Below are positions 41,910 through 60,496 of a DNA stretch of 64,000 bases, in pieces; within the stretch, counting starts at the first letter, position 1, and each line of letters begins with the position of its first letter. The position numbers and the translations under genes are program-made. Below the pieces are notes generated by a model. It was not told where the DNA came from. It did no database searches and saw only the letters and a program-made list of their open reading frames with translations. Where the stretch lies: positions 124,001 to 188,000 of the forward strand of contig JAHFUR010000003.1 of NCBI GenBank assembly GCA_023264995.1, read 5' to 3'. The DNA is from Acidimicrobiia bacterium (lineage in GTDB: Bacteria; Actinomycetota; Acidimicrobiia; Acidimicrobiales; AC-14).

Positions 41910-42974
41910 TCAGTGACCTCCAACGATGATGAGCAAGACGACGAGGATGACCAGGGCGGAGATGGTGATGGCGGCGAGGCGCATGCGCTGCCGGTTGCGC
42001 TGTTGCAGCCGCGCCACCTCGACCTGGTGGCGTTGGCGGGCCTCGTCGGCCTTCCGGGCGGTGGCCACCGCCTCGGCCCGGGCCACCAGGGCGGCAGCGG
42101 CCGCCGAGGGGGTAGGGAACGACTGGGCGGCGGCGGCGTCTGTCACCGACCGGTCGGTGGCGTGGCCGAGTGCGGTAAACACCGGCACCCGGCAGTGGGT
42201 GACGGCCCGCACCAGCTGAGGCGTGTCCCAGCAGGCCATGCCGGAGCGCGCTCCGCCCCCTCTTGCGATGACGATCACCTCGGCCCCCCGGCCGCACAGC
42301 CGGGCCAGTGCTCGGGTCACCTCGCCGGCCGCCGTGGGCCCGCTCATGGCCGCCGTCTCCTCCAGGACCTCGAAGGCGATCGGCGATGATCCCAGCACGG
42401 CCAGCATGTCGGCCCGTCCCGCACCCTCAGAGCCGGCGACGAGACCGATGCGTCGGGGTAACGGCGGCACTTCAAGTCGGCGCTGGGCGGCGAGCTCGAC
42501 CGTGGCCCGCAGCTCGGCCACCAGGTTGTCGCGGGCCACCACGGCGGCGCCCAGGGTGATGCGGGGATCGACCCGGGTGGCCACGAGGCGCAGGGGTCCG
42601 TAGGCGCCATTGGCCGCCAGGCGGCCGAAGAATGCGGCTTCGAGGCCGTCGGTCAGCTCGACGTCGACGCCGGCAAGGGTGGCGGCGATGGCGGCCGCCT
42701 CGGCGCCAAAGACGCTCACCGGCAGGACCGCCTTCACCCGTTGGGCGTCAGGGTGGTACTCCACTAGCTCGAAGGAGCAGTAGCGAGGCTTGCGGCGCAG
42801 GCTCTGGACCACGCCGGTGACCCACACCTGGCAAAGCCCGGCGGAGCGCAGGGCCTCGTCGAGGGCCTCGTGGAGCTGGCTGACCGTCGTCCCTACCGGC
42901 GCCGTGGCTGGCGGGACGGGTGGGGCGGGCGGCTGGGCGCCAGCGGGGGTCGTGGCCGGTTCGGCATTGGTCAT
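41910..42974 (-). CDS. ExoVII large-subunit-like nuclease with a C-terminal membrane anchor
   Basis: 354-residue XseA relative. The N-terminal OB-fold region is TTVSQLHEALDEALRSAGL to YCSFELVEYHPDAQ, and the nuclease core keeps the family residues: GAGRADMLAVLGSS, VIVIARGGGARSGMACWDTP near 240, and FTALGHATDRSVTDAAAAQS near 268, then PTPSAAAAALVARA. Normal XseA ends in a long coiled coil that binds XseB. Here that part is only about 35 residues and is followed by a strong C-terminal helix (LAAITISALVILVVLLIIVG) that would put the enzyme on the inner membrane. The ATG overlaps the stop of a 59-residue gene. Catalytic competence looks likely; attachment to the transfer channel is a guess. Confidence 0.87.
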   Translation of the reverse strand: MTNAEPATTPAGAQPPAPPVPPATAPVGTTVSQLHEALDEALRSAGLCQVWVTGVVQSLRRKPRYCSFELVEYHPDAQRVKAVLPVSVFGAEAAAIAATLAGVDVELTDGLEAAFFGRLAANGAYGPLRLVATRVDPRITLGAAVVARDNLVAELRATVELAAQRRLEVPPLPRRIGLVAGSEGAGRADMLAVLGSSPIAFEVLEETAAMSGPTAAGEVTRALARLCGRGAEVIVIARGGGARSGMACWDTPQLVRAVTHCRVPVFTALGHATDRSVTDAAAAQSFPTPSAAAAALVARAEAVATARKADEARQRHQVEVARLQQRNRQRMRLAAITISALVILVVLLIIVGGH

Positions 42975-43150
42975 GACCGTCCCAGCCCCCAGAGGTAGCG
43001 GCGGGCACTGGCCCACGCCACCGCCGCCGCGGCGAGCTCAAGTACCGGCGCCGCCGAGCCTGGCCAGGGTGACACGCTGCTCAGCGCCGCCACGGGCGCC
43101 ACCGGCGTGCAGTCGGGCGCGTGGGCCGCAGCTCGCTGCTCCCTTGTCAC
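42971..43150 (-). CDS. 59-residue protein coupled to the ExoVII-like gene
   Basis: A short frame starting with GTG at 43150 begins inside the stop of the DUF5710 gene (GTGA) and ends in a TGA that overlaps the ExoVII-like ATG (ATGA); both junctions are exact four-base overlaps, strong evidence that it is translated. The product starts MTREQRAAAHAPDCTPVAPV and has an alanine-rich helix near its end (LELAAAAVAWASARRYLW). It does not resemble XseB, although it occupies the place a small subunit would. It could be a diverged small partner or a membrane peptide. Confidence 0.65.
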   Translation of the reverse strand: MTREQRAAAHAPDCTPVAPVAALSSVSPWPGSAAPVLELAAAAVAWASARRYLWGLGRS

Positions 43151-44218: not shown

Positions 44219-44656
44219 TCACGCTCCGTCGTCAGTAGGCACCCTCCCGAGGTCTCGGTCCTTGAGCCGATAGCTGTCGCCCTTGAGGCTGACGACCTCG
44301 GCGTGGTGCACCAGGCGGTCGATCATGGCGGCGGCGACCACCGCATCGCCGAACACCTCTCCCCATCGTCCGAACTGCTTGTTGGAGGTGACGATCACGC
44401 TGGCCCGCTCGTAGCGGGCCGCCACCAGCTGGAAGAACAGGTTGGCCGCCTCAGCCTCGAAGGGGATGTAGCCGACCTCGTCGATGACGAGCAGCGGGTA
44501 GCGCCCGAGCTTGGTGAGCTCGTCGTGCAGCCGACCGCTTCCATGGGCCGCGGCCAAGCGGTCGACCCATTGCGCCGCGGTGGCGAAGGCCACCCGATGA
44601 CCCGCTTGGCAGGCCCGGATCGACAACCCGATGGCCAGATGGGTCTTGCCCGTCCC
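44219..44656 (-). pseudogene. istB: istB, 3' part (separated by the nested insertion)
   Basis: Encodes the C-terminal two-thirds of the IstB ATPase, from the second half of the Walker A motif: GTGKTHLAIGLSIRACQAGH, then Walker B PLLVIDEVGYIPFEAEAANL, VIVTSNKQFGRWGEVFGDAV and the ending RLKDRDLGRV. The missing N-terminal part is at 47457-47798. The two halves would rejoin as GPPG-TGKTHL if the intervening element excised, so the gene is interrupted rather than decayed. Confidence 0.92.
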
Positions 44657-44713
44657 TTCCGGGACAGCGACAGACTGCAACATCTCCGGCGCGTTCTGCC
44701 GTGCGAGGTCCGG

Positions 44714-44980
44714 GTGACGTCTCCGCTGCACCCGTTGTTCGGCCAGGCGCTGGCCGCGAGCGGCTTCAAGCGTTGGGAGAAGAACCTGCTCCTGGTGGTC
44801 GCGCTGCCCGACGGATCGCCGGGCACCATTCCCGCCGAGGCCACCGACATCCTCGGAACGAGGCCGGTCGAGACCATGACCTCGGTGCTCTCCGTGGAGG
44901 GCGTGCGTCATCTTCGACGGCTCCTCGACACGCTCGGCCCGGTGGAGCGTTCCCCCAAAGGCACCCAGACGCGCAAATAG
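44714..44980 (+). CDS. DUF5372-like small protein of the nested element
   Basis: About 88 residues starting at GTG 44714 (GAGG upstream), with TSPLHPLFGQALAASGFKRW and WEKNLLLVVALPDGSPGTIP as recognisable segments. Small proteins beginning with an R-V/I-T-x-P-x-HPL-x-G pattern regularly accompany this type of large serine recombinase. Function unknown; the sequence pattern suggests a small beta-rich domain. The frame stays open upstream into istB, so the start is uncertain. Confidence 0.7.
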   Translation: MTSPLHPLFGQALAASGFKRWEKNLLLVVALPDGSPGTIPAEATDILGTRPVETMTSVLSVEGVRHLRRLLDTLGPVERSPKGTQTRK

Positions 44981-45025
44981 GCTCAGCCGACCCTGTACGC
45001 GCCAACGAACCGGGAGGTGAGCCCT

Positions 45026-45211
45026 TTGCGACGGCTCAGAATAGTCGCGCCCATCCAGCTGGCCATGGTGATGCCGGAGCTGGCCTCGACACCTGCCCAG
45101 CGATGGTCGGCGCTGCCCGACGACGCCCGGACGGCGGCGCTGTCGCTGCTGGCCCGGATGATCGCCAATGGTGTCGTCGAGGAGGAGGCGGCCGATGCCC
45201 CTGAGCATTGA
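45026..45211 (+). CDS. Small accessory protein upstream of the recombinase
   Basis: 61 residues from TTG 45026 (GGGAGG about eight bases upstream), or 64 from GTG 45017. The product is helical: LRIVAPIQLAMVMPELASTP, DDARTAALSLLARMIANGVV, with an acidic end. It overlaps the recombinase start by 17 bases and the strong GGAGGAGG for the recombinase lies inside it. Comparable short helical proteins often precede this recombinase type; a directionality or regulatory role is only a guess. Confidence 0.68.
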   Translation: MRRLRIVAPIQLAMVMPELASTPAQRWSALPDDARTAALSLLARMIANGVVEEEAADAPEH

Positions 45212-47426
45212 CCTCGGCTCCAAGGTGACCGCCGCCCACCTTGGCCGCGACGCCTACGTCTATGTCCGCCAGTCGACATTGACCCAGGTCCGGGAGCACA
45301 CCGAGAGCCTGGAGCGCCAGTACGAGCTGGCCTTCCGAGCCCAGGCCCTGGGGTGGTCGCCACCGCAGGTGGTGGTCATCGACGAGGACCTCGGGCGCTC
45401 CGGCGCTGAAACGTCATGCCGTGAGGGGTTCAAGAACCTCGTCGCCGACGTCGGGCTGGGCAAGGTCGGCATCATCCTGGGCATCGAGGTCTCCCGCCTG
45501 GCCCGCAACAACGCCGACTGGTATCAGCTCCTCGACCTCTGCGCGGTGACCGACACCCTCATCGCCGACGGTGACGGGCTCTATCACCCGGGCGACTTCA
45601 ACGACCGGCTGGTGCTGGGCCTGAAGGGCACGATGTCGGAGGCGGAGCTGCACATGATCCGCCACCGCCTCACGGCTGGCCTCCGTCACAAGGCGGCCAA
45701 AGGAGAGCTGCGCCAGGGCCTGCCCGTGGGCTTCGTCCACGATGAGGCCGACCACATCGTGATGGACCCCAACGAGGCGGTGGTCGAGGCGATTGCCACC
45801 GTGTTCCGGCGCTTCGACGAGGTCGGCTCGGCCCGCCAGGTCATGCTCTCCCTGCGCGCCGACGGCGTGCTCATCCCTCGCCGGCCGACGGGGGCCAAGC
45901 GGGTGTCGTGGGCACCGGCGACCTATCCGGCGGTCCACGACTTCCTCACCAACCCGACCTACGCCGGGGCGTTCGTCTTCGGCCGCACCCGCACCGAGAA
46001 GCGCCTCGACGCCAGCGGGCGGCTGGTGTCGCGTGCTCGGACGTTGCCTCGCAATGAGTGGTCGGTGCTGATCCCCGACCACCACCCCGGCTTCGTGTCC
46101 TGGGAACGGTTCGAACAGAGCCAGGACCAGCTCCGGGCAAACTGGCGACCGCCGCGGGGAGAGGGCGGCGGGGCCGTGCGCGAAGGCGCCGCCCTCCTGC
46201 AGGGTCTCCTGCGTTGCGGCCGGTGCGGGCGGATGATGCAGACCGCCTACTCGGGGGCGAAAGGCAACTGCCCGCGCTATGCCTGTGCCCGGGCGGCCCA
46301 GCTCTATGGGGCCGATCGGCACTGCCAGAGCCTGGGCGGGCGCCGGCTCGAACAACGCGTCCTCGACGAGGTCTTCGCGGTGCTCGCGCCAGCGGCTCTG
46401 GCCGCGACGGCCAAGGCCCTGGGCGAGGCCGAGGCCCAGCACCGGCGGCGCCTCGCCGTCTTCGAGCTCGCCGTCGAACGGGCCTGTTTCGAGGCCGAGC
46501 GGGCCCGGCGCCAGTTCGACGCGGTGGAACCCGAGAACCGCCTCGTGGGCCGGAGCTTGGAGAAGGCGTGGGAGGCGGCCCTGGTCGCCCAGCGTCAGGC
46601 CGAGGCCGACCTGACCGCCCAGCGGGCCCGTCAACCGACACGCCTCAGCGCTGAGGAGGTGGCCTGGCTGAGCCGCGCCGGCGCCGATGTCCGGGCCGTG
46701 TTCAACGCCCCCAGCACCACCTGGCGGGAGCGTAAGCAGCTGCTGCGGGCGGTCATCGCCGAGATCGTCATCACCGTGCGGGTGACCGAGCGAGAGGCCG
46801 ACGTAAAGGTGATCTGGGAGGGCGGCGCCACCAGCGGCTTCGTGCTGGCCATGAACAAGACCGGCGGGCACTCCCGAACTACTGACGAAGACACCGTCGC
46901 CCTCGTGCGACGCCTGGCCGAGCGATACGACGACACGACCATCGCCGTGATCCTGGTCAAGCAAGGGCGAAGGACGGGGACAGGGCTGGCCTTCAACCGC
47001 AGCCGGGTCAACTCACTCCGCAACACCTACGGCATCGCGGCCTTCGTGCCGGGCGTCGTTGTCGCACCGGCCGACGATGATGGCGTGGTGGTCACCGTCT
47101 ATCGGGCTGAGAAGATCCTCGGCGTCGACAAGAGCACGATCTATCGCTGGCTGAAGGACGGGTTCATCGAGGGCGAGCAGCTCACGCCCGCCGGCCCGTG
47201 GCACCTGCGTATCACCGACGAGCTCCGCAGACGCATCGTGGCCGAGGTGCCCGAAGGCTGGGTGGACCTCTCTCAGGCGGCCAAGGTTCTCGGCGTCGCC
47301 CGTCAGACGGTGTTGCACAAGGTCCAACGCGGCGAGCTGGACGCCGTGCATGTGAACCGCGGGAAGCGGAAAGGCTTGCGGATCAACGTTCCGAGCCAGT
47401 CCGCTGGACTGTTCGCGACACCGTGA
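45195..47426 (+). CDS. Large serine recombinase with C-terminal HTH modules
   Basis: 743 residues from ATG 45195 with GGAGGAGG upstream. Resolvase domain: catalytic serine in AYVYVRQSTLTQVREHTESL (about S27) and GIILGIEVSRLARNNADWYQ. The recombinase domain contains GLRHKAAKGELRQGLPVGFV and FLTNPTYAGAFVFGRTRTEK. A zinc ribbon (CGRCGRMMQTAYSG with CPRYACARA) and a coiled coil follow. After residue 610 there are two HTH modules (KILGVDKSTIYRWLKDGFIE; AAKVLGVARQTVLHKVQRGE), making the protein longer than typical integrases. It presumably catalysed insertion of the nested element into istB. Confidence 0.93.
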   Translation: MPLSIDLGSKVTAAHLGRDAYVYVRQSTLTQVREHTESLERQYELAFRAQALGWSPPQVVVIDEDLGRSGAETSCREGFKNLVADVGLGKVGIILGIEVSRLARNNADWYQLLDLCAVTDTLIADGDGLYHPGDFNDRLVLGLKGTMSEAELHMIRHRLTAGLRHKAAKGELRQGLPVGFVHDEADHIVMDPNEAVVEAIATVFRRFDEVGSARQVMLSLRADGVLIPRRPTGAKRVSWAPATYPAVHDFLTNPTYAGAFVFGRTRTEKRLDASGRLVSRARTLPRNEWSVLIPDHHPGFVSWERFEQSQDQLRANWRPPRGEGGGAVREGAALLQGLLRCGRCGRMMQTAYSGAKGNCPRYACARAAQLYGADRHCQSLGGRRLEQRVLDEVFAVLAPAALAATAKALGEAEAQHRRRLAVFELAVERACFEAERARRQFDAVEPENRLVGRSLEKAWEAALVAQRQAEADLTAQRARQPTRLSAEEVAWLSRAGADVRAVFNAPSTTWRERKQLLRAVIAEIVITVRVTEREADVKVIWEGGATSGFVLAMNKTGGHSRTTDEDTVALVRRLAERYDDTTIAVILVKQGRRTGTGLAFNRSRVNSLRNTYGIAAFVPGVVVAPADDDGVVVTVYRAEKILGVDKSTIYRWLKDGFIEGEQLTPAGPWHLRITDELRRRIVAEVPEGWVDLSQAAKVLGVARQTVLHKVQRGELDAVHVNRGKRKGLRINVPSQSAGLFATP

Positions 47427-47456
47427 TGAAAGGAATGCGCAGTGTCAACCACGACC

Positions 47457-47798
47457 GGGCGGACCGAGGAAGACCACGTTCTCCCGGCCCTCCACGAAGT
47501 CCAGGGCGCCGAGGTGGGCGATGACGTCGCGCTTGAGGGAGCGCTGGTGGTCGAAGTCGAAGTCCTCCAGGGTCTTGCGGGCCGGGAAGCGGGCGGCCCG
47601 GATGCGGATCTCCCCACCGTTGGATTGCCGGGCCGCCACCTCCCGTTCCAGGCAGGCGGCCAGGAACTCCTCATGACTCCAGCCGTCGGCCCGGGCCCGC
47701 TCGCCCAGGCGCTCGATCGAGCGGGCGAGGGTGGGTGCCTTCAGCGCCCGGCACAGATAGGCCAAATCGGAGGCCGGCTTGGTCTTCGCCGTGGCCAT
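47457..47798 (-). pseudogene. istB: istB, 5' part (separated by the nested insertion)
   Basis: N-terminal third of IstB from ATG 47798, overlapping the istA stop as usual in IS21. It carries the helper domain (LAYLCRALKAPTLARSIERL, DGWSHEEFLAACLEREVAAR) and ends GRENVVFLGPPG, where the nested element begins; two foreign residues and a stop follow. Together with 44219-44656 it makes a normal-length IstB. Confidence 0.92.
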
Positions 47799-49009
47799 CA
47801 CGCCACCTCGGTGATGGCGTCATAGACAGCGAGGTCGCGCTCCTCGACGTCGTCGCTGTCCGGTTCGGCGGCGACGGCCTCCTCGGCCCGCATGGCCCGC
47901 AGGATGCGGGAGTGTTCGGGCGCCAGGATGCTTTGGTGGGCGGCCAGGCACCGGCGGTGGCGGGCCACCTCGGTCCCCTCGCAGGTGACCACGACGCTGT
48001 CGAGGTCGACGCGCACCTGGATGCGCCGGCCCACGTAGCGGGGGTTGACCGAGTAGTCGTTGACGTCGGCCCGCACGTAGTGGTCACGGGGCAGGCGCAT
48101 CGACCACCGCTGTGAGGTGTCGGGCAGCACCGGAGGGAAGGCGAGCATGGCTCCTCGGTCCTCGGCCATGGCCTCCCGGGGCCGCACCTTGGTGGTGGCG
48201 TGGATGCGGTGGTTGGCCGCCACCAACCAGCCGGTGATCTGGCGGTTGAAGTCGGCGACGTCCTCGAAGCGACGCCCGGGCAAGAAGCTGGTCTCGAAGT
48301 AGCCGTTGGCCCGCTCCACGAGACCCTTGGCCTCAGGGTCGCCACGCTGGCACAGCAAAGCCCCGATGCCGAGGGTGCCCCGGAAGGCCTGGAACTCGGC
48401 GGTGAAGGACATCTCCTTGCCCCGCCACCGCCCGATGGCCGACTCCTGGTCCCACACCACCATCCGAGGCAGGGCACCGAACTGGCTCAGGACCTTGAGA
48501 TGGCCGCCGAGCACGTCATGGGTCTGGCGGGAGGGGATCATCCAGGCGCCGATGAAGCGGCTGAAGCCGCACACGCCAACGAGCACCCACAACTTCTGCG
48601 CCTGGCCGTAGCCAAGTGGGATGTCGACATCCGGCTGCCACAGGTCGAACTGGGCCAGCTCCCCGGGGCGATAGGACGTGCGCTGACAAGGGTCGGGCGG
48701 CACGAACAGCGGTCGCAGCTCGGCGACGCGCTCCCGCAGCACGCGGATGGAGTGCTCCCAGCAGATGCGCTCGGCGATCACTGTCGCCGGCATCTCGGGG
48801 AACTCCCGCAGCAGCTCGAGGACCCGCGGCTCCACGGCGTCGACGATCGAGCCCTTCCTCTCGCGTTCATAGCTCGGCGGCCCCTGCGAGCGCAGCGCAG
48901 CCCGCACCGTGTTGCGGGCCAGCCCCAGTCTGCGGACGATGGCCTTGACGCTCATCCCTTCGGCTCGATGGAGCCGACGGATCTCCGCCCAGTCCTCCAC
49001 GTTGATCAC
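47798..49009 (-). CDS. istA: IS21-family transposase IstA
   Basis: 403-residue DDE transposase starting at GTG 49009 (product begins MINVEDWAEIRRLHRAEGMS), with a GGAAGGG site. An N-terminal HTH (SVKAIVRRLGLARNTVRAAL) and the rve catalytic core are visible: ELAQFDLWQPDVDIPLG, VVWDQESAIGRWRG, and GDPEAKGLVERANGYFETSF with its glutamate. The C-terminal beta domain (VNPRYVGRRIQVRVDLDSVV) is present. Intact, but IstB is broken, so the element is likely immobile unless helped in trans. Confidence 0.95.
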   Translation of the reverse strand: MINVEDWAEIRRLHRAEGMSVKAIVRRLGLARNTVRAALRSQGPPSYERERKGSIVDAVEPRVLELLREFPEMPATVIAERICWEHSIRVLRERVAELRPLFVPPDPCQRTSYRPGELAQFDLWQPDVDIPLGYGQAQKLWVLVGVCGFSRFIGAWMIPSRQTHDVLGGHLKVLSQFGALPRMVVWDQESAIGRWRGKEMSFTAEFQAFRGTLGIGALLCQRGDPEAKGLVERANGYFETSFLPGRRFEDVADFNRQITGWLVAANHRIHATTKVRPREAMAEDRGAMLAFPPVLPDTSQRWSMRLPRDHYVRADVNDYSVNPRYVGRRIQVRVDLDSVVVTCEGTEVARHRRCLAAHQSILAPEHSRILRAMRAEEAVAAEPDSDDVEERDLAVYDAITEVA

Positions 49010-49079
49010 CCTTCCTTCTCCCTGGCGCACATGGGGCCAGAGTCCGAGTTCCATCACGGTCAGTGGTGGACCCGGGAAG

Positions 49080-49979: not shown

Positions 49980-52900
49980 CTAGGCCAACTCTGGGCAGTG
50001 ATGCTCGATCACCGCACGGGTGAGCTGCTCGCCTCGGAGTGAGAGGAGGCGAAGGTCCTCCTCACTCATGGGGGCGAAGTCGGTCGGGTAACCGACCACC
50101 TCACGTCGCCGCACCAGCCCCGAGGGTGTAACCGGTAGGTTCCGGTCCGACATTCCTAGGAACGGCATCGCAAAGCCCATAATCGTTCCGGCAGCGACAT
50201 GATCATGCAGGTTGCTCTTCTCCGCGTCCTGCACCTTCCGGTACAGCGACTCGAACGAGCGCTTCATCCTCGACGGCCACCACAGCGGCCAGGCGTCCTT
50301 GTCGAGCACTCCCTGCCCGGCGTCGCAGGAGATGATGTAGTCCACCGGATGGACGTTGGTGCTGTAACGAGATTTCCGTCCCGGCTCCAAACAGGTCGTC
50401 CCGAGGTTGTCGTATACCCCGCCGTCAGTCAGCATCACGCGCTCATCTCGGATTTCTCCGCCTCGTCCGTGGAAGCGCATCTGAAGGTCCAGGGCGGGCA
50501 GCAGCACGGGATAGGCCGCCGAGGCAGCGACAGCATCGGCAACTGGCACCGAGTTGTCGACTAGCCGTCCGTACCTCGTACAGCCGCTTTCGACGCTCCC
50601 GAACCTGAAGGCGCTGCCGCTCCGAAGCTCGCAGGCGTTGATCACGACGTGGAGATCCCGGAGCGGCTGGCTGATGTTCGCTTCGCCGAAAAGCTGCGAG
50701 CGGAGCACGTCTGCGAACGCGGTCGTGCGGCTCACCCATCGGCGGAACGGCGGCTCAACCGGGGACTTCCTGCGACGCGGGTGTACCGCCCGCCTGCCTG
50801 CCCCGAGAGTCGATGCAGCGACCTTGCCAGACCCAGCAACCAATGCTGAAGCAAGGGCCTGCGGAGTCCGGCGCGACACCAGCGCAGCCTTGGCGATATC
50901 CACTGTCAGGCCACGCCGAAGAAGATGGACGACTCGATTGTCGAAGCTGGCGAAGTCTTCCCCCCCGTACGCCCAGAGCGCCCCGATGACCGAACCGCCG
51001 GAAACGGCGGAGAGCACGGCGACATGGTTGAGCACGCCGCGGTCGTGAAGAGCCCGTAGAACCCCGAGATGGAAAGCGACCGCACGAAATCCTCCACCAG
51101 AGAGCGCTAGACCAATCTGGTGCGACGGCTTGACGGCGATCGGGAGGGGCTGGTGAATTGGGGGAGCCGGAAGTGCCGAGCTTCGCCTTCGGTCGTAGAC
51201 ATAGGCAGCGACGGTCCGCTCAAGGCCCAGACCACCAACGATTAGCAGAAGTTGCTGCGGAAGGGGTCGCTCAGGGTCACCGATGACCTGTTCCATGCCG
51301 CCGCGGTCCGTGGGGCTCGGATGCGGATCCGTGCCGGGGTGGGTGTGCCAAAGTCCGATCGGCTTTGAGGCATCCCTGCTCCGGGTGTTGATGGCCGCTG
51401 CCGCCTCGTCCACGCCATCCCGGCCACACACGAATCCCTCGGGGGACGCGATGCTGTCGCAAGGAGGACCGAGGACATCGGACACCCACATGACACCGAC
51501 GGCCTCGTCCCTTTCGCCGAACAGGACGCCACCCGTCTCCCAGCCTGGGCTCACACGCTCAGCGCGATTTGCCCATCCTTGGATTTCAGCGACCGCCGAC
51601 GGGGCGACACGCACCTCGTAGCCACCGAGTTGATCTGGGAGCACGACATCGTTGGGGAACACCAACGTCTCCGTACGGGCGCTACGGCCCCGTACCCAGT
51701 CGGGGAGTTCATAGAAGGCGACCGCTGCCTCAGGCTTCTCGGAGGCGAGACGCTGGGTTGCCGAGAGCAGCATGGTCGCCGCCAGTGCGGCGACCTCCGC
51801 ATCGGAACCGGTGAACGTCGGGCTGGAGCAGCCCGGCTCCGGCTGGAACAGCTCGGTCCGGGGTGGGACTGGCCAGAACTCGGCAGCGAAGCCAGCAAGT
51901 CGGGGCTTCCGTGAAGCAATGATCTTGGCCTTCCGAAGCGTGTCCGCTGGCCCGCCGACTGCGGCCGGTGGACTCACCGAGACAAGTCCCTGAGTTGCCT
52001 CATGGCCAATGATGAAGCTCAGGACCGCAGTCCGCTGGTCGGGGGTTCGGGTGCGCAGCCGTTCCAGTCGCTTCGAAACGCCGACGGACGCAGTCGCATC
52101 AATTACGACGTCGGCATCGCCAGCCCAGTCTGGGTCGAGGCTCTGGTCCTCTATGGCGTCGGCCGATATCACCGACACATCAAGACCGGGACGAATGAGG
52201 CGTAGCCGTCGGGCCAGCGCGTCCGCCTTGTCCTCGCCAAGATCGTCGTCCTCGAAGTTCTGCCGAACGAGCACCCCCGGGCTCACCGTTGAGTTGTCGC
52301 GAAGGACAAGCCGGCCGACGCCACCCCGAGTCAGGTGCTCGGCGATGTGACCGCCGAGCGCACCGCACCCCCACAGGTACACCGACTTGCCTTGCCACCA
52401 TCGCATCGGGGAACCAGAGTCTCGTGGTTGCGTCGCCTCAGGACGGTCCTCCCGGACCGGGCACCACTCGACTTCCGCCACATCCGCCCATCGGTCGATG
52501 ATGCGCATCATCTCTTGGCGGATCCCGGCTAGTTCCTCGCTGTCGGACGCCCTGGGAGCCGCGGTTCTGAGCGCGTCCGCCCACGTCGCAGCTATACGCC
52601 AGGTCGTGAGGTGCTGAACCGGCCGATCCGGGAAACGCCGCATGGGTGCTCCGAGCACGACGTACAGCGGCGCACCCTTCGGCTGAGCCAGCGCACACGC
52701 CCGCAGCAACAGAAACAGCAGCCTTCTGGAGTGTCCCTGTCTCTCAAGCTCACCGACTAGGTCCCGAAGCTTGGCCGGAAACTCCCAGGGAAGCGGCTTC
52801 GCCAGCAGGATCACTGCCGCCTGTGGGCCGTCGACGCCGCCCACCTCAAGAGGCTGCCAGCCAGTGATGTCGAACCGAGACTCTCGGGAGTTCGGCCGCA

Positions 52901-53417
52901 GTGACGCGAACCCGAGCCACTCATCACCGGAAACGGCAGGCGTATCGACCCGAGGGACGAACAGTGGTGTCCCGGCCGTTGTATAGATCACTGGTGGATG
53001 CAGTGGCTCCCCCGCAGGATCCAACTCGCCCTTAGAGGCGCTCTTCAGCCACGAGGTCAGGCGCGGGTCGATGAACCCGAACATGCCGTCGCTGGGGTTC
53101 CATTCCGTCTCTGGGGAGGCGTACACACACAGATACCGGCCCCACTGAACGTGGTTGGTACCGGCCCAGCGCCGATGGGTCACCCAAAGCGCAGGGGGCC
53201 GGAACGGGAAGGACGGTGGCATCCCGATCTGGAACCTCTCCCGGTTTCGGAGATGGATCCCGCCCTCGCGATGCTCCCACCCCCGGCAGTCGATGGACAC
53301 TGTGACGTAGAGCCAGTGGTTGAAATCCCAGTGGTGGTGGAGGACTTCTAGGCTTCCCGGTTCGGCCTCTGCGATCGAGGCCAGCTCCCGAAGTCCTTGA
53401 TCCTGACCCTGCGTCAC
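49980..53417 (-). CDS. E2-E1-JAB-patatin fusion: ubiquitin-like conjugation enzymes joined to a phospholipase
   Basis: 1145-residue multi-enzyme protein. Residues about 20-135 form a prokaryotic E2-like domain with the putative catalytic cysteine C97 (GRYLCVYASPETEWNPSDG). Residues about 340-560 are a ThiF/E1 adenylation domain (SVYLWGCGALGGHIAEHLTR, ADVVIDATASVG) with a candidate catalytic cysteine in EPGCSSPTFTGSD (C530). Residues about 595-745 are a JAB/JAMM isopeptidase with E627 (WETGGVLFGE) and a complete HxHx7Sx2D motif (H691, H693, S701, D704). Residues about 765-1145 are a patatin-like lipase with oxyanion loop SGGGFRA, nucleophile S806 (AVSGGSV) and catalytic Asp in TDGGVYDNLG. All active sites look intact. 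It is coupled by ATGA to the upstream metallo-beta-lactamase-fold gene. Separate E2-E1 (Cap2), JAB (Cap3) and patatin (CapV) proteins occur in CBASS; no CD-NTase is present here. Confidence 0.9.
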   Translation of the reverse strand: MTQGQDQGLRELASIAEAEPGSLEVLHHHWDFNHWLYVTVSIDCRGWEHREGGIHLRNRERFQIGMPPSFPFRPPALWVTHRRWAGTNHVQWGRYLCVYASPETEWNPSDGMFGFIDPRLTSWLKSASKGELDPAGEPLHPPVIYTTAGTPLFVPRVDTPAVSGDEWLGFASLRPNSRESRFDITGWQPLEVGGVDGPQAAVILLAKPLPWEFPAKLRDLVGELERQGHSRRLLFLLLRACALAQPKGAPLYVVLGAPMRRFPDRPVQHLTTWRIAATWADALRTAAPRASDSEELAGIRQEMMRIIDRWADVAEVEWCPVREDRPEATQPRDSGSPMRWWQGKSVYLWGCGALGGHIAEHLTRGGVGRLVLRDNSTVSPGVLVRQNFEDDDLGEDKADALARRLRLIRPGLDVSVISADAIEDQSLDPDWAGDADVVIDATASVGVSKRLERLRTRTPDQRTAVLSFIIGHEATQGLVSVSPPAAVGGPADTLRKAKIIASRKPRLAGFAAEFWPVPPRTELFQPEPGCSSPTFTGSDAEVAALAATMLLSATQRLASEKPEAAVAFYELPDWVRGRSARTETLVFPNDVVLPDQLGGYEVRVAPSAVAEIQGWANRAERVSPGWETGGVLFGERDEAVGVMWVSDVLGPPCDSIASPEGFVCGRDGVDEAAAAINTRSRDASKPIGLWHTHPGTDPHPSPTDRGGMEQVIGDPERPLPQQLLLIVGGLGLERTVAAYVYDRRRSSALPAPPIHQPLPIAVKPSHQIGLALSGGGFRAVAFHLGVLRALHDRGVLNHVAVLSAVSGGSVIGALWAYGGEDFASFDNRVVHLLRRGLTVDIAKAALVSRRTPQALASALVAGSGKVAASTLGAGRRAVHPRRRKSPVEPPFRRWVSRTTAFADVLRSQLFGEANISQPLRDLHVVINACELRSGSAFRFGSVESGCTRYGRLVDNSVPVADAVAASAAYPVLLPALDLQMRFHGRGGEIRDERVMLTDGGVYDNLGTTCLEPGRKSRYSTNVHPVDYIISCDAGQGVLDKDAWPLWWPSRMKRSFESLYRKVQDAEKSNLHDHVAAGTIMGFAMPFLGMSDRNLPVTPSGLVRRREVVGYPTDFAPMSEEDLRLLSLRGEQLTRAVIEHHCPELA

Positions 53418-54580
53418 CGCTTGCCGAAGCCGACGACCGAACCGTGCGGCTCATCTCCTCCACGCGCAGCCGTCACCGCTTCAGACACCTTCGACGCTTC
53501 GGACTTTGGCTCGCCGCTGAACAATGCGATCCCGTCCACATCCACGCTGAAGACGATGGGCTCATCGCTCTCCTCGTCCGGGTATTCGCCCGTGCAGAGG
53601 AACCCGCTCGGGGCAATCTCCTCGTAGCGCGCTTTTGCCAGGGCGTGCGGCGGGTTGTCGCCGAGCTGGTTGGATGCGGGCACCGGCACCGACGAGGCGA
53701 CTACCCAGCCGGTCTCGCCAGCAGCCGCTTCAATCGCGTCCAGGATGTCCTGCTTCAGAACCTTCTCGTCGTCGCCCTCGTCCTGGAAATACATGGCCGA
53801 CTTGGAACAGTGGTGGGGTGCCAGCAGGACATCCCATGCCTTGTCCTCGGGCTTGCTGTACTCGAAGATCCGACTGAGCGGTGGGTAGTCCAGGTCACCG
53901 AAGAGCATCGCCCTTCCGGTGGCCTCACCTTCGGTCAGCGTGATCTGCATGCCAAGGCTGGTCTTGTTCCGCTCCTGGGTGCTGTCGTCTCCGAAGGGCG
54001 CATGTAGGAATGCACGGAACGTCCCGTCGAGGTGGAATCCGTCGAGAACGGTGACCTCCTCTCCGGGACGACGCTTGAATCGGTCGTCGAGGCCCTTGAA
54101 CTGGTCCTCCTCCAGAATGTCGTCGCCACCAATCACGAGGACCCGATCGCCCGAGTCGACCTCCTCCTCGCCCTTGCCGCAAATCAGCTCGACACGCCGC
54201 ATGGCCTCGTCGCAGAAGGCCTGAGCGTCCTGTGACAGTTCCTCGTGTTCGGTGTAGTCCCGCAAGATCCTGGGGGTGAACCAAAGCTCCCCGATCCGCA
54301 GCTCCCCGGCTTCGACCTTTTCGAGAAGACTCTCAAAACCCTGGCAGTGGTCGAGGTCGGCGTGAGTCAGCGCGAAGACTGCGAGGTATTTCACGCCCTC
54401 AACTTCCGGGAGAAGGTCCATCAGTCGGTCGACCATGGGGCTGAAGGGTGTGGTCTCGTCATCCGCCTGCTTCATGTGGTGGATATCGATCTGCAGCACC
54501 ACGTTGTCGTTCACCTTGACCGTGGTGCTATCGCCGCAACCGACTGGCCAGAAGATGAAGCCTCGTGCGGGCAGGTCCAT
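53414..54580 (-). CDS. Metallo-beta-lactamase-fold protein coupled to the E2-E1-JAB-patatin gene
   Basis: 388 residues from ATG 54580 with a GGAAGG site eight bases upstream. MBL-fold hydrolase of the ComEC/RNase-like branch: first strand block FIFWPVGCGDSTTVKV, zinc motif ALTHADLDHCQGFESLL (THxDxDHxxG), a later aspartate in GRAMLFGDLDYPPLSRI, and a histidine pair in VLLAPHHCSKSAMYF. An insert of about 100 charged residues lies between the metal motifs. No signal peptide, so it acts in the cytoplasm, perhaps on a nucleotide or nucleic acid. The stop overlaps the next gene by four bases. MBL-fold genes are known neighbours of bacterial E1/E2/JAB operons. Confidence 0.88.
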   Translation of the reverse strand: MDLPARGFIFWPVGCGDSTTVKVNDNVVLQIDIHHMKQADDETTPFSPMVDRLMDLLPEVEGVKYLAVFALTHADLDHCQGFESLLEKVEAGELRIGELWFTPRILRDYTEHEELSQDAQAFCDEAMRRVELICGKGEEEVDSGDRVLVIGGDDILEEDQFKGLDDRFKRRPGEEVTVLDGFHLDGTFRAFLHAPFGDDSTQERNKTSLGMQITLTEGEATGRAMLFGDLDYPPLSRIFEYSKPEDKAWDVLLAPHHCSKSAMYFQDEGDDEKVLKQDILDAIEAAAGETGWVVASSVPVPASNQLGDNPPHALAKARYEEIAPSGFLCTGEYPDEESDEPIVFSVDVDGIALFSGEPKSEASKVSEAVTAARGGDEPHGSVVGFGKR

Positions 54581-54757
54581 GGAGCCGCCTTCCTGGTGCG
54601 ATGGTTCGTTTGCGACCATTCAACCGCGTGGGTGAGACACTATCCCCCGGGTGGGAACGACCGTTCGACCTGTGGTGTCCCCCGCTGCGGTCGAGCCGAC
54701 GTCTCTCCGCTGTGCGTAGGGGGCGTCTAACTTGGCGCTTCAAGTCGTCGCCACGCC

Positions 54758-56035: not shown

Positions 56036-56269
56036 GTGGCAGACAAGGAGGAGTGGCTCAGTGTAGAGAAGGCCAGCGGCTATTCGGGGCTGCCGGTCAA
56101 TTCGATCTACCGACTCGTCCGGGAGGGCAAGCTCACCGCCTTGCGGTTCCCGGTCAGAGTCAGCCGTCACGAGCTTGACCGAGGTTTGCAGCTATGCCGA
56201 ATCCAGCCGGGAGAGTTGGCACATCTCCACCCTCGCCGCATGAATGGCGCCATCAGTAGTTCTCCCTGA
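56036..56269 (+). CDS. Small helix-turn-helix DNA-binding protein
   Basis: 77 residues with an excisionase/HTH_17-type domain: WLSVEKASGYSGLPVNSIYR as the helix-turn-helix and LTALRFPVRVSRHELDRGLQ as the wing and third helix. Start GTG 56036; no strong ribosome site is visible. Its C-terminus overlaps the 3' end of hsdR on the other strand by 17 bases. It might regulate the flanking HEPN gene or be a remnant excision factor for the island. Confidence 0.7.
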   Translation: MADKEEWLSVEKASGYSGLPVNSIYRLVREGKLTALRFPVRVSRHELDRGLQLCRIQPGELAHLHPRRMNGAISSSP

Positions 56270-59200
56270 TGTAGGCGTAGGCACGGTCGAAAAGCTCTCC
56301 GGTGGTTGGCAGGCCGTACTTCTTGAGAATGAGACGGACCTCTTTGCGGACGGTTCGGTCGCCCTCCTGCGTCTGGTTCCAACCCGTGAACCGCACCTGG
56401 CGAACGATCGTGTCGATGTCAGCGACGATGTTCTCGATTATCACGGGCACATCAGGCGGGGCGTACTCACGAAGAATTTGCGTGAGAGCGCCCACGTTCG
56501 GGTCGGGGAGAATGCTGACCGCATCTATCTGGCCAGCATCGTCTGCCCTCTCGGCAGCGGTGACATGCTTGGCGACGTCCAACAGCTCTTTGAGGATCTC
56601 CACGGAAGCCGCTGCTTGAGTGATCTGGCGACTGCGTAGCCGCTCCAGGCGCTCAGAGATGGCGACGTATACGGGGTGGTTTCCCGACGATTCGAGCCGA
56701 CGTCGAATTCGAGCCTCGATGGTGTCGAAGGCCTCCGCCACGGTGATGGGTTCGTCGGCCTCCGGCAGCGTCACGGTCCCGTCGGGGAGCCCGAGCTGGC
56801 GGATCGCCTCGATGGTCTCGGCGTCCACGATCACCTCGTCCAGCCCGGTGCTGGTGACTCGAACCTCGGTGATGTGCCCGTGCACCAACTCCAGGGTCTT
56901 AGCCCCGAGCCGCTGCCAGAGGAGAGCATCGCTGGTGCCGGTGGGCTGAACCGACTCGTAAACCTGCGCGAGCCACCGGTGTTCGGTTCGATGGGCAGCC
57001 GTCACCGGCGACGGGTCGAGGAACTCCCACAACCCCTCCACCCGGAGGAAGTCGCGGGCAAAGGCCTCACCTTCCTCCTCGCCCCGAATCCGGTCCTGTG
57101 CGGCCATCAGGGCCTCGAAACCGATGTCGCTGCGGTCGATGCCAGCGAAGCGCTCCAACGTCGCATCCATGGCTGTGAGGAACTCCTCCGCCAAGCCCTC
57201 GACGTCGACCGGACGACGACCACCACGTTCGGGATCGGCATCACGTAATGCCGTGGCGATCTGGCTACCAAGACCCACGTAGTCCGCGATCAGGCCGTAG
57301 TGCTTCTCCTGGCCGGTGATCCGGTTCGTGTAACGGCGATTCGTCCGGCAGATGGCCTGGAAGAGTGTGTGCAGCCGGAGCGGCTTGTCGAGGTACATGA
57401 CGCCCTCGATCGAAGCGTCGAAACCCGTGAGCAGCTTGGCGGTCACGATCAAGAAGCGCAGCGGATCACCCGGGTCACGGAAGCGGGCCTTCACGGCCGC
57501 TTCCTGCTCGCGGGTGAGTTGAAACCGCTTCCGCCACTCTGCCGGTTCATCCTTCGTCGTGCCGGTGGTCATCACAACCGCGGCCTCGTTTTGATCCTCG
57601 ACGCCGCGCTCCGCCAGCAAGCGGGAGATCTCGTCGTTGTAGGCGACGCAGAGTTGACGGTCGTAGGCAACGACCTGTGCCTTTAGGCCAAGGGGAGCAA
57701 CCTTCGTCAGGTAGTGCTCAACGAGGTCGGCGCATACTTCTCGGATCCGCTCGGGGTTCCGCACGAACGTCTTGGCCGAGGCCGCACGATCGGCGAGGAC
57801 CTCACGCTCCTCGTCAGTCAACCCCTCCTCATCGGCCATCGCAGCGAACGCTTCGTCGAGCGCCTCCTTATCGATGTGGAAGTCGACCAGCCGGGTCTCC
57901 ACATGGATCGGGACGCTGGAACCGTCCGCGATCGACCGCTCGATCGTGTACCGGTTAAGCACCCATCCAGGATCATCGGGATCACCGAAAAGCTTGAAGG
58001 TATTGCGCTCGGCATCCGAGACGGCGGTGCCCGTCAGGCCAAAAAACTGGGCGTTCGGGACGGCGGTGCGAAGGTCGTCGCCTAGACGGCCCTCCTGAGT
58101 CCGGTGGGCCTCGTCAATGAGGACGATGATGTTCGCCCGGTCGTTGAGGAACCCTGCCCCCTCGAACCGGAAAATCGTCGTAACGATGATCCCCCGGGCG
58201 TCTTCGGCAAGTATCCGCCGCAGATCCTCTTTAGTGCCGGCCACCCGGAGCCGGGGTAGGCCGGCCGTCTGGAACTGGCGGACAGTCTGCTCAACCAGAT
58301 CGATACGGTCGAGCACGATCAGAACTGTCGGCCCCCCGATCGCGGGATCCTGGAGAAGGCGTAGCGCGGCGAAGGCCATGAGCAGCGTCTTCCCCGTGCC
58401 CTGTGATTGCCAGATGAGACCCTGTCGACGGAGAGGGTCGAGCACCCGCTTGTGGATCGCCTCCACTCCCTCTACTTGCGGGTACCGGGGGATTAGCTTG
58501 CTCAGCCGAGATTGACCGCCGGTCAATGATCGATCGAAGAGCACGAAGTCTCGAAGGATGCTCAGGAGCCGTGCCGGGTTCAGCAGGAGGTCCACCGAGC
58601 GGAGGACGCGCTCCGCGCCGGACAGGTCCCAGGGGTCCGTGGTGGAGCCCCACAGGAGCCACTCCTCCGGGAGTTGGCCGACTGCGCCGTAATGGAACTC
58701 TCGGCCCTCCGAGGCGAAGGACAGCAGGTTCGTGGCAAAGAAAGGTGATGCCTCCACCTCGTAGGTACCGTGGATGTCCCGAGCGGCATTGAGCCACGAC
58801 ACCGAAGCCTTGACCGGGGTCTTCGTCTCACCCACGACGAGCGGGATCCCGTTCACCCACAGCACCAGGTCGAACCGGCGGTTCTGGCCGGGCGAGCCGA
58901 ACGTCACCTCGTCTGAGACCACGAGCTGGTTGCGGGTCGGGTGCGCTAGGTCGATCACGCGCACCGGGTCGTAGTCGTCGGCTCCGATGAACTTCATGGT
59001 CTGATGACCGCGTAGCCAAGTCGTCATCCGCTCGTTGGCGAGTACTAAGCCGTCGTACGCCGCGGCGAGTGCAGCGGCACGGAGCCGTGGCAGGATTTCG
59101 TCAACCCGTACAGGTTGAGCAGCGACGAGAGGATTCAGGCGGATCAGGGCGGCGCTCAGGTCATTCTCTATGAACACCCCGTCGATCCTGCGGTCCAGGT

Positions 59201-59288
59201 CCTTTCCTGGGATGTGCGTCCAACCCAGGGAGACAAGCCGCTCAATGAGCGCTAGTTGGACCGTCGAGGACTCCGAGAACCCGGTCAC
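56253..59288 (-). CDS. hsdR: Type I restriction endonuclease subunit R
   Basis: 1011-residue motor and nuclease subunit of a type I restriction-modification complex; it translocates DNA and cuts unmodified molecules. The N-terminal PD-(D/E)xK nuclease is seen at about 135-165 (RFDLVLWVNGIPLVVGETKT). SF2 helicase motifs follow: Walker A IWQSQGTGKTLLMAFAAL at about 290, VLIDEAHRTQEGRLGD (DEAH) at about 393, FFGLTGTAVSDAERNTFKLF, and later LIVTAKLLTGFDASIEGVMY. The C-terminal helical region is intact. It overlaps hsdS by four bases. Confidence 0.95.
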   Translation of the reverse strand: MTGFSESSTVQLALIERLVSLGWTHIPGKDLDRRIDGVFIENDLSAALIRLNPLVAAQPVRVDEILPRLRAAALAAAYDGLVLANERMTTWLRGHQTMKFIGADDYDPVRVIDLAHPTRNQLVVSDEVTFGSPGQNRRFDLVLWVNGIPLVVGETKTPVKASVSWLNAARDIHGTYEVEASPFFATNLLSFASEGREFHYGAVGQLPEEWLLWGSTTDPWDLSGAERVLRSVDLLLNPARLLSILRDFVLFDRSLTGGQSRLSKLIPRYPQVEGVEAIHKRVLDPLRRQGLIWQSQGTGKTLLMAFAALRLLQDPAIGGPTVLIVLDRIDLVEQTVRQFQTAGLPRLRVAGTKEDLRRILAEDARGIIVTTIFRFEGAGFLNDRANIIVLIDEAHRTQEGRLGDDLRTAVPNAQFFGLTGTAVSDAERNTFKLFGDPDDPGWVLNRYTIERSIADGSSVPIHVETRLVDFHIDKEALDEAFAAMADEEGLTDEEREVLADRAASAKTFVRNPERIREVCADLVEHYLTKVAPLGLKAQVVAYDRQLCVAYNDEISRLLAERGVEDQNEAAVVMTTGTTKDEPAEWRKRFQLTREQEAAVKARFRDPGDPLRFLIVTAKLLTGFDASIEGVMYLDKPLRLHTLFQAICRTNRRYTNRITGQEKHYGLIADYVGLGSQIATALRDADPERGGRRPVDVEGLAEEFLTAMDATLERFAGIDRSDIGFEALMAAQDRIRGEEEGEAFARDFLRVEGLWEFLDPSPVTAAHRTEHRWLAQVYESVQPTGTSDALLWQRLGAKTLELVHGHITEVRVTSTGLDEVIVDAETIEAIRQLGLPDGTVTLPEADEPITVAEAFDTIEARIRRRLESSGNHPVYVAISERLERLRSRQITQAAASVEILKELLDVAKHVTAAERADDAGQIDAVSILPDPNVGALTQILREYAPPDVPVIIENIVADIDTIVRQVRFTGWNQTQEGDRTVRKEVRLILKKYGLPTTGELFDRAYAYIRENY

Positions 59289-60496
59289 ACCGCCGCAAGG
59301 AACGACTCGTAGGAAGCAGGTATGCGATGTTCACTCCCTAGCAGATCGTCCAGAAGGGTCGAGCGAAGCTGCCTGAGCGCCGCTACGAGATCGTCCGCTG
59401 TTCGCCCTTCAGTGTCGGCGGCCTCAACGACTTCGATAAATGAGCCTTGCGCATCAGGATCGATCATCACGACCGGCATAATCTCAATCCGCTCCGCACC
59501 GATGTGAAAGATGTTTGTGCCGGAGGCTATCGATGCGAATGCGCCCGACTCGAACGCGTATCGGGCCCACTGTTGAGCGTATCCGGGCAACGACCGCCCC
59601 AGCCGGGAGCGCAGGCGCAACAGCGTGTTCTGGAAGCAGACGACTCCCGCCCGTTCTCCGACCCACTGCGCAGAGGCGCCCAATTGAGCAATGCTGCCGC
59701 ACCCTTCCGTGATCAGCACATCTCCTGACTCAAGTCGGTACTTCGTCTGCTCGGCCGGCGTGAAGTTCATCGTCTTGATGTCCGCGAGGTCTAGCCGTCC
59801 GTCCTTAACGTTTGCCGCGCGGAGATAAGGCAGCATGTTCGCACCAGAGGCATGCCTTGGAGAACGCTGTCGACCCATCGTGACCTCAAAGAACGTGCCA
59901 ACCTGACCTACTGGGCCACTGATCTCGGCAAAGTGTTCTTGGCGTAAAGACCGAGCGAGGGCCCGACAGTCGTCGCCGACCCGAAGCGCTGCAGCAACAG
60001 CGACCTCACAGGCAAGCACCAGATCGACGATCCGCCGTTGCTCTGCGAGCGGCGGCAGGTCCACCGCAATGCTCAGCAGTCCTGCAGGCGAGAGCCGCTT
60101 TCGTCGCATCACGGTCCCCGTGGATCGGCCAAGCATCTCTGACCAAAATGATGGACGAGCGACCACGAATCCGAGGAACTCTGGAAGGGCGTGTCGCCTG
60201 TCGATTGTGAATGTCGGGAACTCAGGCGAGACGAAGGCCCCATCCAGTTCCGGTGGAACTATTCCGATCGCGCCCTCCCACGCTGTCAGCTTTCGCATGA
60301 CCATCTGTCCTGATCGCAGGACGTGGAGGTGCTGATAGCGCGTGTCATCGCCACTCAAGTCCCCACGAGGGAAGACGCCCCTAGCGGCGTTCAGAACCCC
60401 GGCTCCGCTGTACTTCATACCAGCCTTGACCGAGATGCGCTCTGTGTCGAGTCGCGCGACGTCGCTGAGCCGCACGCGCCGCCAGTTGTCACTCAT
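59285..60496 (-). CDS. hsdS: Type I restriction-modification specificity subunit S
   Basis: 403 residues determining the bipartite target sequence. Two target recognition domains are separated by the conserved helical spacer: TRD1 starts NWRRVRLSDVARLDTERISV and runs to LSPAGLLSIAVDLPPLAEQR, followed by RIVDLVLACEVAVAAALRVG; TRD2 starts SGPVGQVGTFFEVTMGRQRS and ends with a second helix (LRQLRSTLLDDLLGSEH). The PLAEQRRIV segment is characteristic of HsdS. It overlaps hsdM by eight bases and hsdR by four. Confidence 0.93.
   Translation of the reverse strand: MSDNWRRVRLSDVARLDTERISVKAGMKYSGAGVLNAARGVFPRGDLSGDDTRYQHLHVLRSGQMVMRKLTAWEGAIGIVPPELDGAFVSPEFPTFTIDRRHALPEFLGFVVARPSFWSEMLGRSTGTVMRRKRLSPAGLLSIAVDLPPLAEQRRIVDLVLACEVAVAAALRVGDDCRALARSLRQEHFAEISGPVGQVGTFFEVTMGRQRSPRHASGANMLPYLRAANVKDGRLDLADIKTMNFTPAEQTKYRLESGDVLITEGCGSIAQLGASAQWVGERAGVVCFQNTLLRLRSRLGRSLPGYAQQWARYAFESGAFASIASGTNIFHIGAERIEIMPVVMIDPDAQGSFIEVVEAADTEGRTADDLVAALRQLRSTLLDDLLGSEHRIPASYESFLAAV

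Follow-up and report, generated by a model that had tools for sequence, protein, structure and literature searches.

A large serine recombinase unit inserted in the P-loop codons of istB, with relatives in the genes of other mobile elements

What interrupts the istB gene of an IS21 element inside its own P-loop (Walker A) codons, and is that position an accident or a target? The question is raised by a 64,000-nucleotide stretch of an Acidimicrobiia bacterium (assembly GCA_023264995.1, contig JAHFUR010000003.1, positions 124,001 to 188,000; hereafter the window), the minus strand of which carries an IS21 consisting of istA and then an istB split in two by a 2,800-bp unit. A serine-recombinase unit splitting istB inside its P-loop codons was confirmed as real. 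The unit is very probably a minimal integrative element in which a large serine recombinase does the work, using IstB P-loop DNA as its bacterial attachment site (attB), within a family that targets the enzymes of mobile elements.

The interrupted istB and its recombinase

The IS21 and the unit comprise the following features (loci used for comparison are numbered with the prefix L).

44219..44656, minus strand: C-terminal part of istB, resuming inside the P-loop (GTGKTHLAIG...); IstB_IS21 match, E 4.2e-52, profile positions 102-235
47455..47801, minus strand: N-terminal part of istB, stopping inside the P-loop (...ENVVFLGPPG); IstB_IS21 match, E 7e-23, profile positions 3-104
47798..49057, minus strand: istA, the IS21 transposase gene, unbroken; rve and Mu-transpos_C_2 matches; relatives have an intact istB beside istA
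44714..44980, plus strand: DUF5372-like protein of about 88 residues; PF17342 match, E 2.9e-4; 28-row alignment; homologues upstream of most relatives
45017..45211, plus strand: open reading frame (ORF) of 64 residues, just upstream of and overlapping the recombinase gene; same-place homologues, for example in L020-L024 and L026
45195..47426, plus strand: large serine recombinase, 743 residues, ATG at 45195; Resolvase, Recombinase and zinc-ribbon matches (Pfam), coiled coil
47082..47384 (approximate limits), plus strand: two excisionase-like helix-turn-helix (HTH) modules at the recombinase C terminus; HTH_17 (two stretches), TIGR01764

When the flanks were joined at the GG that they have in common (plus strand, CC), the sequence ...NVVFLGPPGTGKTHLAIG... 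was obtained, and with it the GPPGTGKT P-loop, as the original prediction from the letters alone had proposed. The rejoined IstB aligned without gaps to an intact IstB of the same class (L113, 85% over 260 residues) and matched that of L108 at 89% over 259 columns; agreement with intact IS21 copies, on which the prediction had been staked, was thereby found. L108 was also the best match for each half taken separately (88% and 90%), and because both halves are closest to the same locus, they can be assigned to one kind of IS21. On plasmid pTC1 of Paenarthrobacter aurescens, one annotated istB is matched in adjoining stretches by both halves. A near-identical empty site for the window's IS21 was not found at the DNA level in 395 genomes of the class, where the best intact relative stood at 89% in protein, so the DNA-level empty-site test rests on relatives of the unit, as described below.

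The 743-residue protein is a large serine recombinase, and its two C-terminal HTH modules and two small companion proteins were all present as predicted. Pfam identified the resolvase domain (PF00239, E 4.4e-19; catalytic domain at residues 21-172), PF07508 (E 1.3e-15) and the zinc ribbon PF13408 (E 3.5e-8), and in a 19-row alignment Tyr-24, Arg-26 and Ser-28 of the catalytic YxRQS motif were invariant. At the C terminus, HTH_17 was matched in two stretches, and the NCBIfam model TIGR01764 (excise) at residues 694-725; the DNA encoding these modules contains a 30-nt direct repeat (47098-47127 and 47269-47298, spacing 171 bp). A profile built from 19 relatives matched YokA of SPbeta, Bxb1, PhiC31, TP901-1 and TnpX. 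The predicted model of the recombinase (mean predicted local distance difference test score, pLDDT, 78; predicted template modeling score, pTM, 0.36) has long helices at 383-443 and 450-479, and its top Foldseek matches were solved SPbeta and PhiC31 integrase complexes, with E values down to 1.6e-18. DUF4368 was absent from the Pfam matches at E up to 1.

Two other identities were considered and rejected. A small serine transposase of the IS607 type was ruled out by the length of 743 residues, by HTH modules placed C-terminally and not ahead of the catalytic domain, and by a score of 22.2 bits for NF033518 against a cut-off of 110. For XisF, the excision recombinase of the fdxN element, the score was 87.2 bits against an NCBIfam equivalog cut-off of 375.

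Target genes of related recombinases

A scan of one genome per species returned 587 relatives, of which the best 80 (L020-L099) were analyzed. Further loci were taken from plasmids (L012-L019, of which L012, L013, L018 and L019 are complete plasmids) and from a viral contig (L100), and a second independent sample consisted of 10 loci besides the window. In a search with the rejoined IstB, 20 of the 80 loci proved to have the recombinase gene next to istB sequence that breaks off at residues 113-118, and the same codon is interrupted outside that set in L018, L019 and L100. Inspection of the relatives' flanks, which had been suggested as a check, accordingly gave istB P-loop sequence for one quarter of the loci, distributed over at least two separate recombinase clades, and the proposal that the istB Walker A codons serve as attachment site of the recombinase is supported. 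With the cut at this very codon in some 20 further loci, chance is no explanation for the P-loop position. The recombinase gene always runs antiparallel to istB in these loci; for L025 and L030 the istB call comes from a single short flank each, and L021 and L022 are nearly copies of each other, as are L075 and L076.

A sister clade resides in the reverse transcriptase (RT) genes of group II introns, where the cut falls between the two Phe of the catalytic FFD motif (VDxDLxxF/FDxIxH, the slash marking the cut). With a further 16 loci in other genes, 67 of the best 80 of the 587 relatives have at least one flank in a mobile-element gene, and in the second sample all five targets that could be assigned, by eye and tblastn, are again mobile-element genes. 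The assignments are as follows.

istB P-loop, 20 of the 80: L020, L021, L022, L023, L025, L030, L062, L065, L067, L068, L070, L072, L074, L075, L076, L078, L079, L082, L088, L097
RT, FFD motif: 31 of the 80, and plasmid loci L012-L017
RT, near LGIPT: L066, L069
ATPase other than IstB: L024
IstA: L087, L098
IS3: L050, L073, L083, L095
ISNCY-like: L093
IS66: L081, L086, L099
IS110: L085
UPF0236: L054
IS5-like: L057
Second sample, targets: L119 IS3; L121 IstA; L122 and L128 RT; L125 ISNCY-like transposase
Second sample, no target assigned: L120, L123, L124, L126, L127

Pfam supports the target in L050, L054, L057, L073, L081, L085, L086, L095, L098 and L099, and the other labels were given by tblastn or by reading. 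Those read from translations, and not from Pfam, are IS30 (L005), IS3 (L083 and L119), ISNCY (L093 and L125), IstA (the second unit of L068, and L121) and the ExeA/TniB-like ATPase (L024); for L054, L057 and L050 the target was called from one flank, or the position by eye. Joining the flanks of L069, L085 and L098 gave one long open frame in each case, with the motif restored, and the junction of L098 (RGNE/KGRVES) adjoins the third catalytic (DDE) residue of IstA. The unit of L024 lies inside a P-loop (VITGE/VGAGKT) of an ATPase without a Pfam family.

The targets were shown to follow the recombinase tree. On a tree of 101 recombinases bearing 14 target labels, 15 label changes were needed, against a mean of 39.9 after shuffling, and none of 200 shuffles was as low; this is a FastTree with some long branches, in which the label of L094 (tyrosine recombinase) is doubtful. 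That label was subsequently dropped, the junction lying outside the catalytic motif and the left flank not fitting, and L094 was counted among the loci without a target. Taken literally, relatives in unrelated sites, the outcome named beforehand as telling against an istB target, do occur (RT, IstA, IS3, IS66, IS110 and another ATPase). The idea is widened by them and not sunk, because the conserved codon at which the unit sits is constant within each clade.

Empty sites were available for two of the plasmid units. An uninterrupted IS21 of CP140907.1 contains the two flanks of L019, from Sinorhizobium meliloti pMl2, as one continuous sequence (99.6 and 99.9% DNA identity), and the junctions of L019 share AGCG, which contains the predicted core AG; the same holds for the flanks of L013 in an uninterrupted ltrA of NZ_CP096253.1 (100 and 99.8%), where 5 bp are shared. 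Insertion was conservative in both: outside the core region all of the target is kept and none of it is present twice, which is how a serine recombinase would be expected to act. Nearly identical units were furthermore found in dissimilar surroundings: the recombinase DNA of L012 and L013 is 98.8% identical and that of L097 and L100 93.9%, and in neither pair do the flanks have DNA similarity, and for L013 and L060 (97.0%) the likeness of the flanks amounts to a 312-bp stretch at 70% on one side. Because near-identical units have dissimilar flanks, the same unit must have entered different introns or IS21 types at the same codon, and comparison of these sequences indicates that the unit moves on its own. 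Some relatives in RT genes (L016, L058 and L061) have a broken recombinase reading frame, and the recombinase DNA of L016 and L061 (plasmid pDK1 and Pseudomonas sp. Ant30-3) is identical.

Attachment sites and alternative explanations

One geometry is common to both P-loop clades and the RT clade: target, two core bases, and 19 nt ending ...TGC, with a mirror image on the other side (GCA/GTA..., 19 nt, two core bases, target). The left arms are alike across clades (GCAGTCTGTCGC, GCAGTATGTCGC and GTAGTGTGTCGT). Applied to the window, this geometry gives the following sites.

44658-44659: left core dinucleotide, GA on the minus strand (an intact codon would give CC); placed by family geometry and the 19-nt spacing
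44660..44678: left attachment arm, 19 nt, ending ACTGC; the arm start GCAGTCTGTCGC is also found in L021, L022, L023 and L024
47439..47457: right attachment arm, 19 nt, starting GCAGT; the same arm in L021-L023 and L025
47458-47459: right core dinucleotide, CC on the minus strand; placed by family geometry

All 17 loci of the RT clade for which both sides were read (40 given) have TT as the core left and right. In the P-loop clades the core coincides with bases one and two of the third codon of the motif and differs as that codon does (CC, AC, AG, GC, GT), and the two cores agree in 13 of 18 loci with both sides read (25 given). The expectation that every IS21 copy would be an equally good site was not borne out, given a core codon that varies (CC, AC, AG, GC). 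A unit of about 2.8 kb joined at a shared CC had also been predicted; the 2,800-bp length holds under either placement of the core, but the crossover at that CC (44655-44656 and 47455-47456) was replaced by the family core three bases away, even though the window itself fits CC better.

Several observations weigh against the reading of the unit as an integrative element with the istB P-loop as its site. Unlike cores were found in 5 of the 18 P-loop loci, namely the window (CC, GA), L070, L078, L079 and L088. Because its two cores differ, the window copy may be frozen and unable to excise; alternatively, the crossover in the window may have been at GG, in the next codon, its position being uncertain within one codon. 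Flanks are mixed in L020, where only the left one is istB and the right one reads like the end of a tyrosine integrase, and in L088, where the istB halves look like two different IS21 types. Such mixed cores and mixed flanks could have arisen by mutation, by exchange between units or through tolerance of a mismatched core. L094 is 84-85% identical to the istB-targeting L097 and L100 and is not in istB, and 13 of the 80 loci have no assigned target (L026, L032, L039, L064, L071, L077, L080, L084, L089, L090, L092, L094 and L096). The window's own assembly contained a single copy of the unit and no intact istB; its istB matches were the two halves and two weak ones, one of the latter above the family cut-off (E 1e-5).

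The core mismatch, the single copy and the missing intact istB are what would be seen if the window copy were a dead remnant, inserted once and now immobile through decay of its attachment core. This is possible but somewhat doubtful, as the recombinase is intact with its invariant catalytic motif, the three reading frames are all open, and the arms on both sides match those of active-looking relatives; the window copy is probably active now or was so formerly.

An unlikely explanation at the level of the family is relaxed multi-targeting, in which a loose target code has no special link to mobile elements, and transposase, IstB and RT genes are hit as the most repeated conserved DNA in bacteria. 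The acceptance of clearly different target DNA by near-identical units (L012 and L013), the varying core codons among P-loop targets and the position of L024 in the P-loop of a non-IstB ATPase all suit such a code, and multi-targeting serine recombinases are on record in the available text of PMC10083194. It accords less well with 67 of 80 loci lying in genes of mobile elements, where the codon is fixed within each clade, or with the loci of assigned target, among which no insertion was recognized in a conserved P-loop of a host gene; nor was DUF4368, the mark of the described multi-targeting clade, detected in the Pfam search. We lean instead toward a large, phylum-crossing family of serine recombinases that are dedicated parasites of transposable elements, with one invariant-motif attB per clade, several switches of motif, and the same arms in the attachment site of the element (attP).

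It is very improbable that the units are a host-selected brake on transposons, that is, a domesticated anti-transposon system. Every insertion with an assigned target does break an enzyme that the target element needs, but there is no sign of fixation or host control, and the distribution is patchy, with a relative at E 1e-60 in 5 of 395 genomes of the host class (the window's own included), often on plasmids (513 matching records, most in rhizobia) and, in viral contigs, three relatives. The least probable explanation, that the unit is cargo or a co-traveler of IS21 whose P-loop position goes back to one ancestral event, was rejected. The descent of unit and flank together in L075/L076, L021/L022 and L051/L052 speaks for it, but it is contradicted by units 94-99% identical in targets without DNA similarity (L012/L013 and L097/L100), as well as by istB insertion in two separate recombinase clades and by intact IS21 copies lacking the unit.

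Accessory genes, proposed mechanism and known systems

The DUF5372-like protein of the window scored 21.2 bits, below the Pfam gathering score of 25 for PF17342, and is for that reason named only by likeness; it was aligned with 27 same-place proteins of relatives at 28-56% identity. Its model (mean pLDDT 80) gave no fold match at E 0.001 or better, and nothing on DUF5372 was found in the open-access full-text literature. The 64-residue ORF had no family in Pfam, NCBIfam or PHROGs. In the clade whose targets are DDE transposases, a protein of some 165 residues with HTH domains of the IS630/IS481 type stands where the small ORF would be (for example L098, 4211-4711, L101, L084, L093, L095 and others).

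Beyond the IS21, a minus-strand gene at 49980-53417 encodes a single chain of 1,145 residues joining Prok-E2, ThiF (E1-like), JAB and patatin-like phospholipase domains, an unusual fusion of parts of an E1-E2-JAB defense module with a phospholipase. Its stop-start neighbor (53414-54619) had weak matches only. Type I restriction-modification genes (R, S and M; 56253-62021, minus strand) lie beside the fusion protein and form with it a small defense region near the IS21. On the other side, 41910-43016 (minus strand) encodes an exonuclease VII large-subunit domain (profile positions 3-174 of 315) and may be a short or divergent relative.

In the mechanism proposed, a circular form of the unit, the existence of which is presumed, would carry a 40-bp attP made up of two arms around the core. 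The recombinase, probably acting alone in the reaction, would recognize the DNA encoding the IstB P-loop (GxxGxGKT) as attB and exchange strands at a 2-bp core in the third codon of the motif, so that target would be neither lost nor duplicated and the unit would come to lie on the strand opposite to istB. Candidates for binding, or for control of direction, are the HTH modules, the DUF5372-like protein and the small ORF. Breakage of istB would disable that IS21 copy at little cost to the host, for which the insertion is plausibly harmless, as had been suggested at the outset, and because IS21 is very common, an attB would nearly always be at hand.

Each clade of the family would have come to use the best conserved codons of an enzyme of another mobile element: the P-loop of IstB or another ATPase, the FFD or LGIPT motif of RT, the region of the third DDE residue (IstA, IS3 and others), IS66 or IS110. 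We infer that conserved motifs make a lasting and widespread attB, because only such DNA remains similar between copies of an abundant element that have otherwise diverged. If this is correct, integrative elements whose attB is the codons of the most conserved motifs of other mobile elements would occupy a niche that is uncharted as far as was searched, and in nature they would hold IS21, group II introns and DDE transposons in check. One class of "broken" istB and ltrA genes is accounted for by the units, and their recombinases, the natural 40-bp sites of which follow protein motifs, should be useful for studying target change in serine recombinases.

The enzyme is of a known kind; what looks new is the choice of targets, which extends over mobile elements of several classes. 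No description of serine-recombinase units inserted in istB or in the RT genes of group II introns was found in open-access full text, a body of literature that mostly omits subscription papers. The accessible portions of PMC8411920 and PMC4853749 hold no description of such units, and the main text of the serine recombinase discovery paper, PMC10083194, as far as available, mentions neither istB nor reverse transcriptase.

The large serine integrases (SprA/YokA of SPbeta, PhiC31, Bxb1, and TnpX of Tn4451) have the same architecture of Resolvase, Recombinase, zinc-ribbon and coiled-coil parts, a 2-bp core between arms, and insertion without loss of target; the excisionase-type HTH modules at the C terminus, the complement of only three small genes and the use of mobile-element catalytic codons as target are the unit's own. 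The phiRv1 prophage of Mycobacterium tuberculosis integrates in REP13E12 repeats and likewise has a serine integrase with a repeated element as attB, but it is confined to one host lineage and one repeat family, whereas the units described here are found in many phyla, and the mobile-element enzymes that they interrupt belong to several classes. The most conserved codons of a gene are also where inteins and homing introns sit when they occupy catalytic motifs; splicing restores the product in their case, whereas here the target gene is simply broken. The DUF4368 multi-targeting recombinases, as described in the available text of PMC10083194, are similar in that one lineage accepts many target genes, and they differ from the present family in the DUF4368 domain, not detected here, and in their targets, which in the present family share one protein motif per clade.

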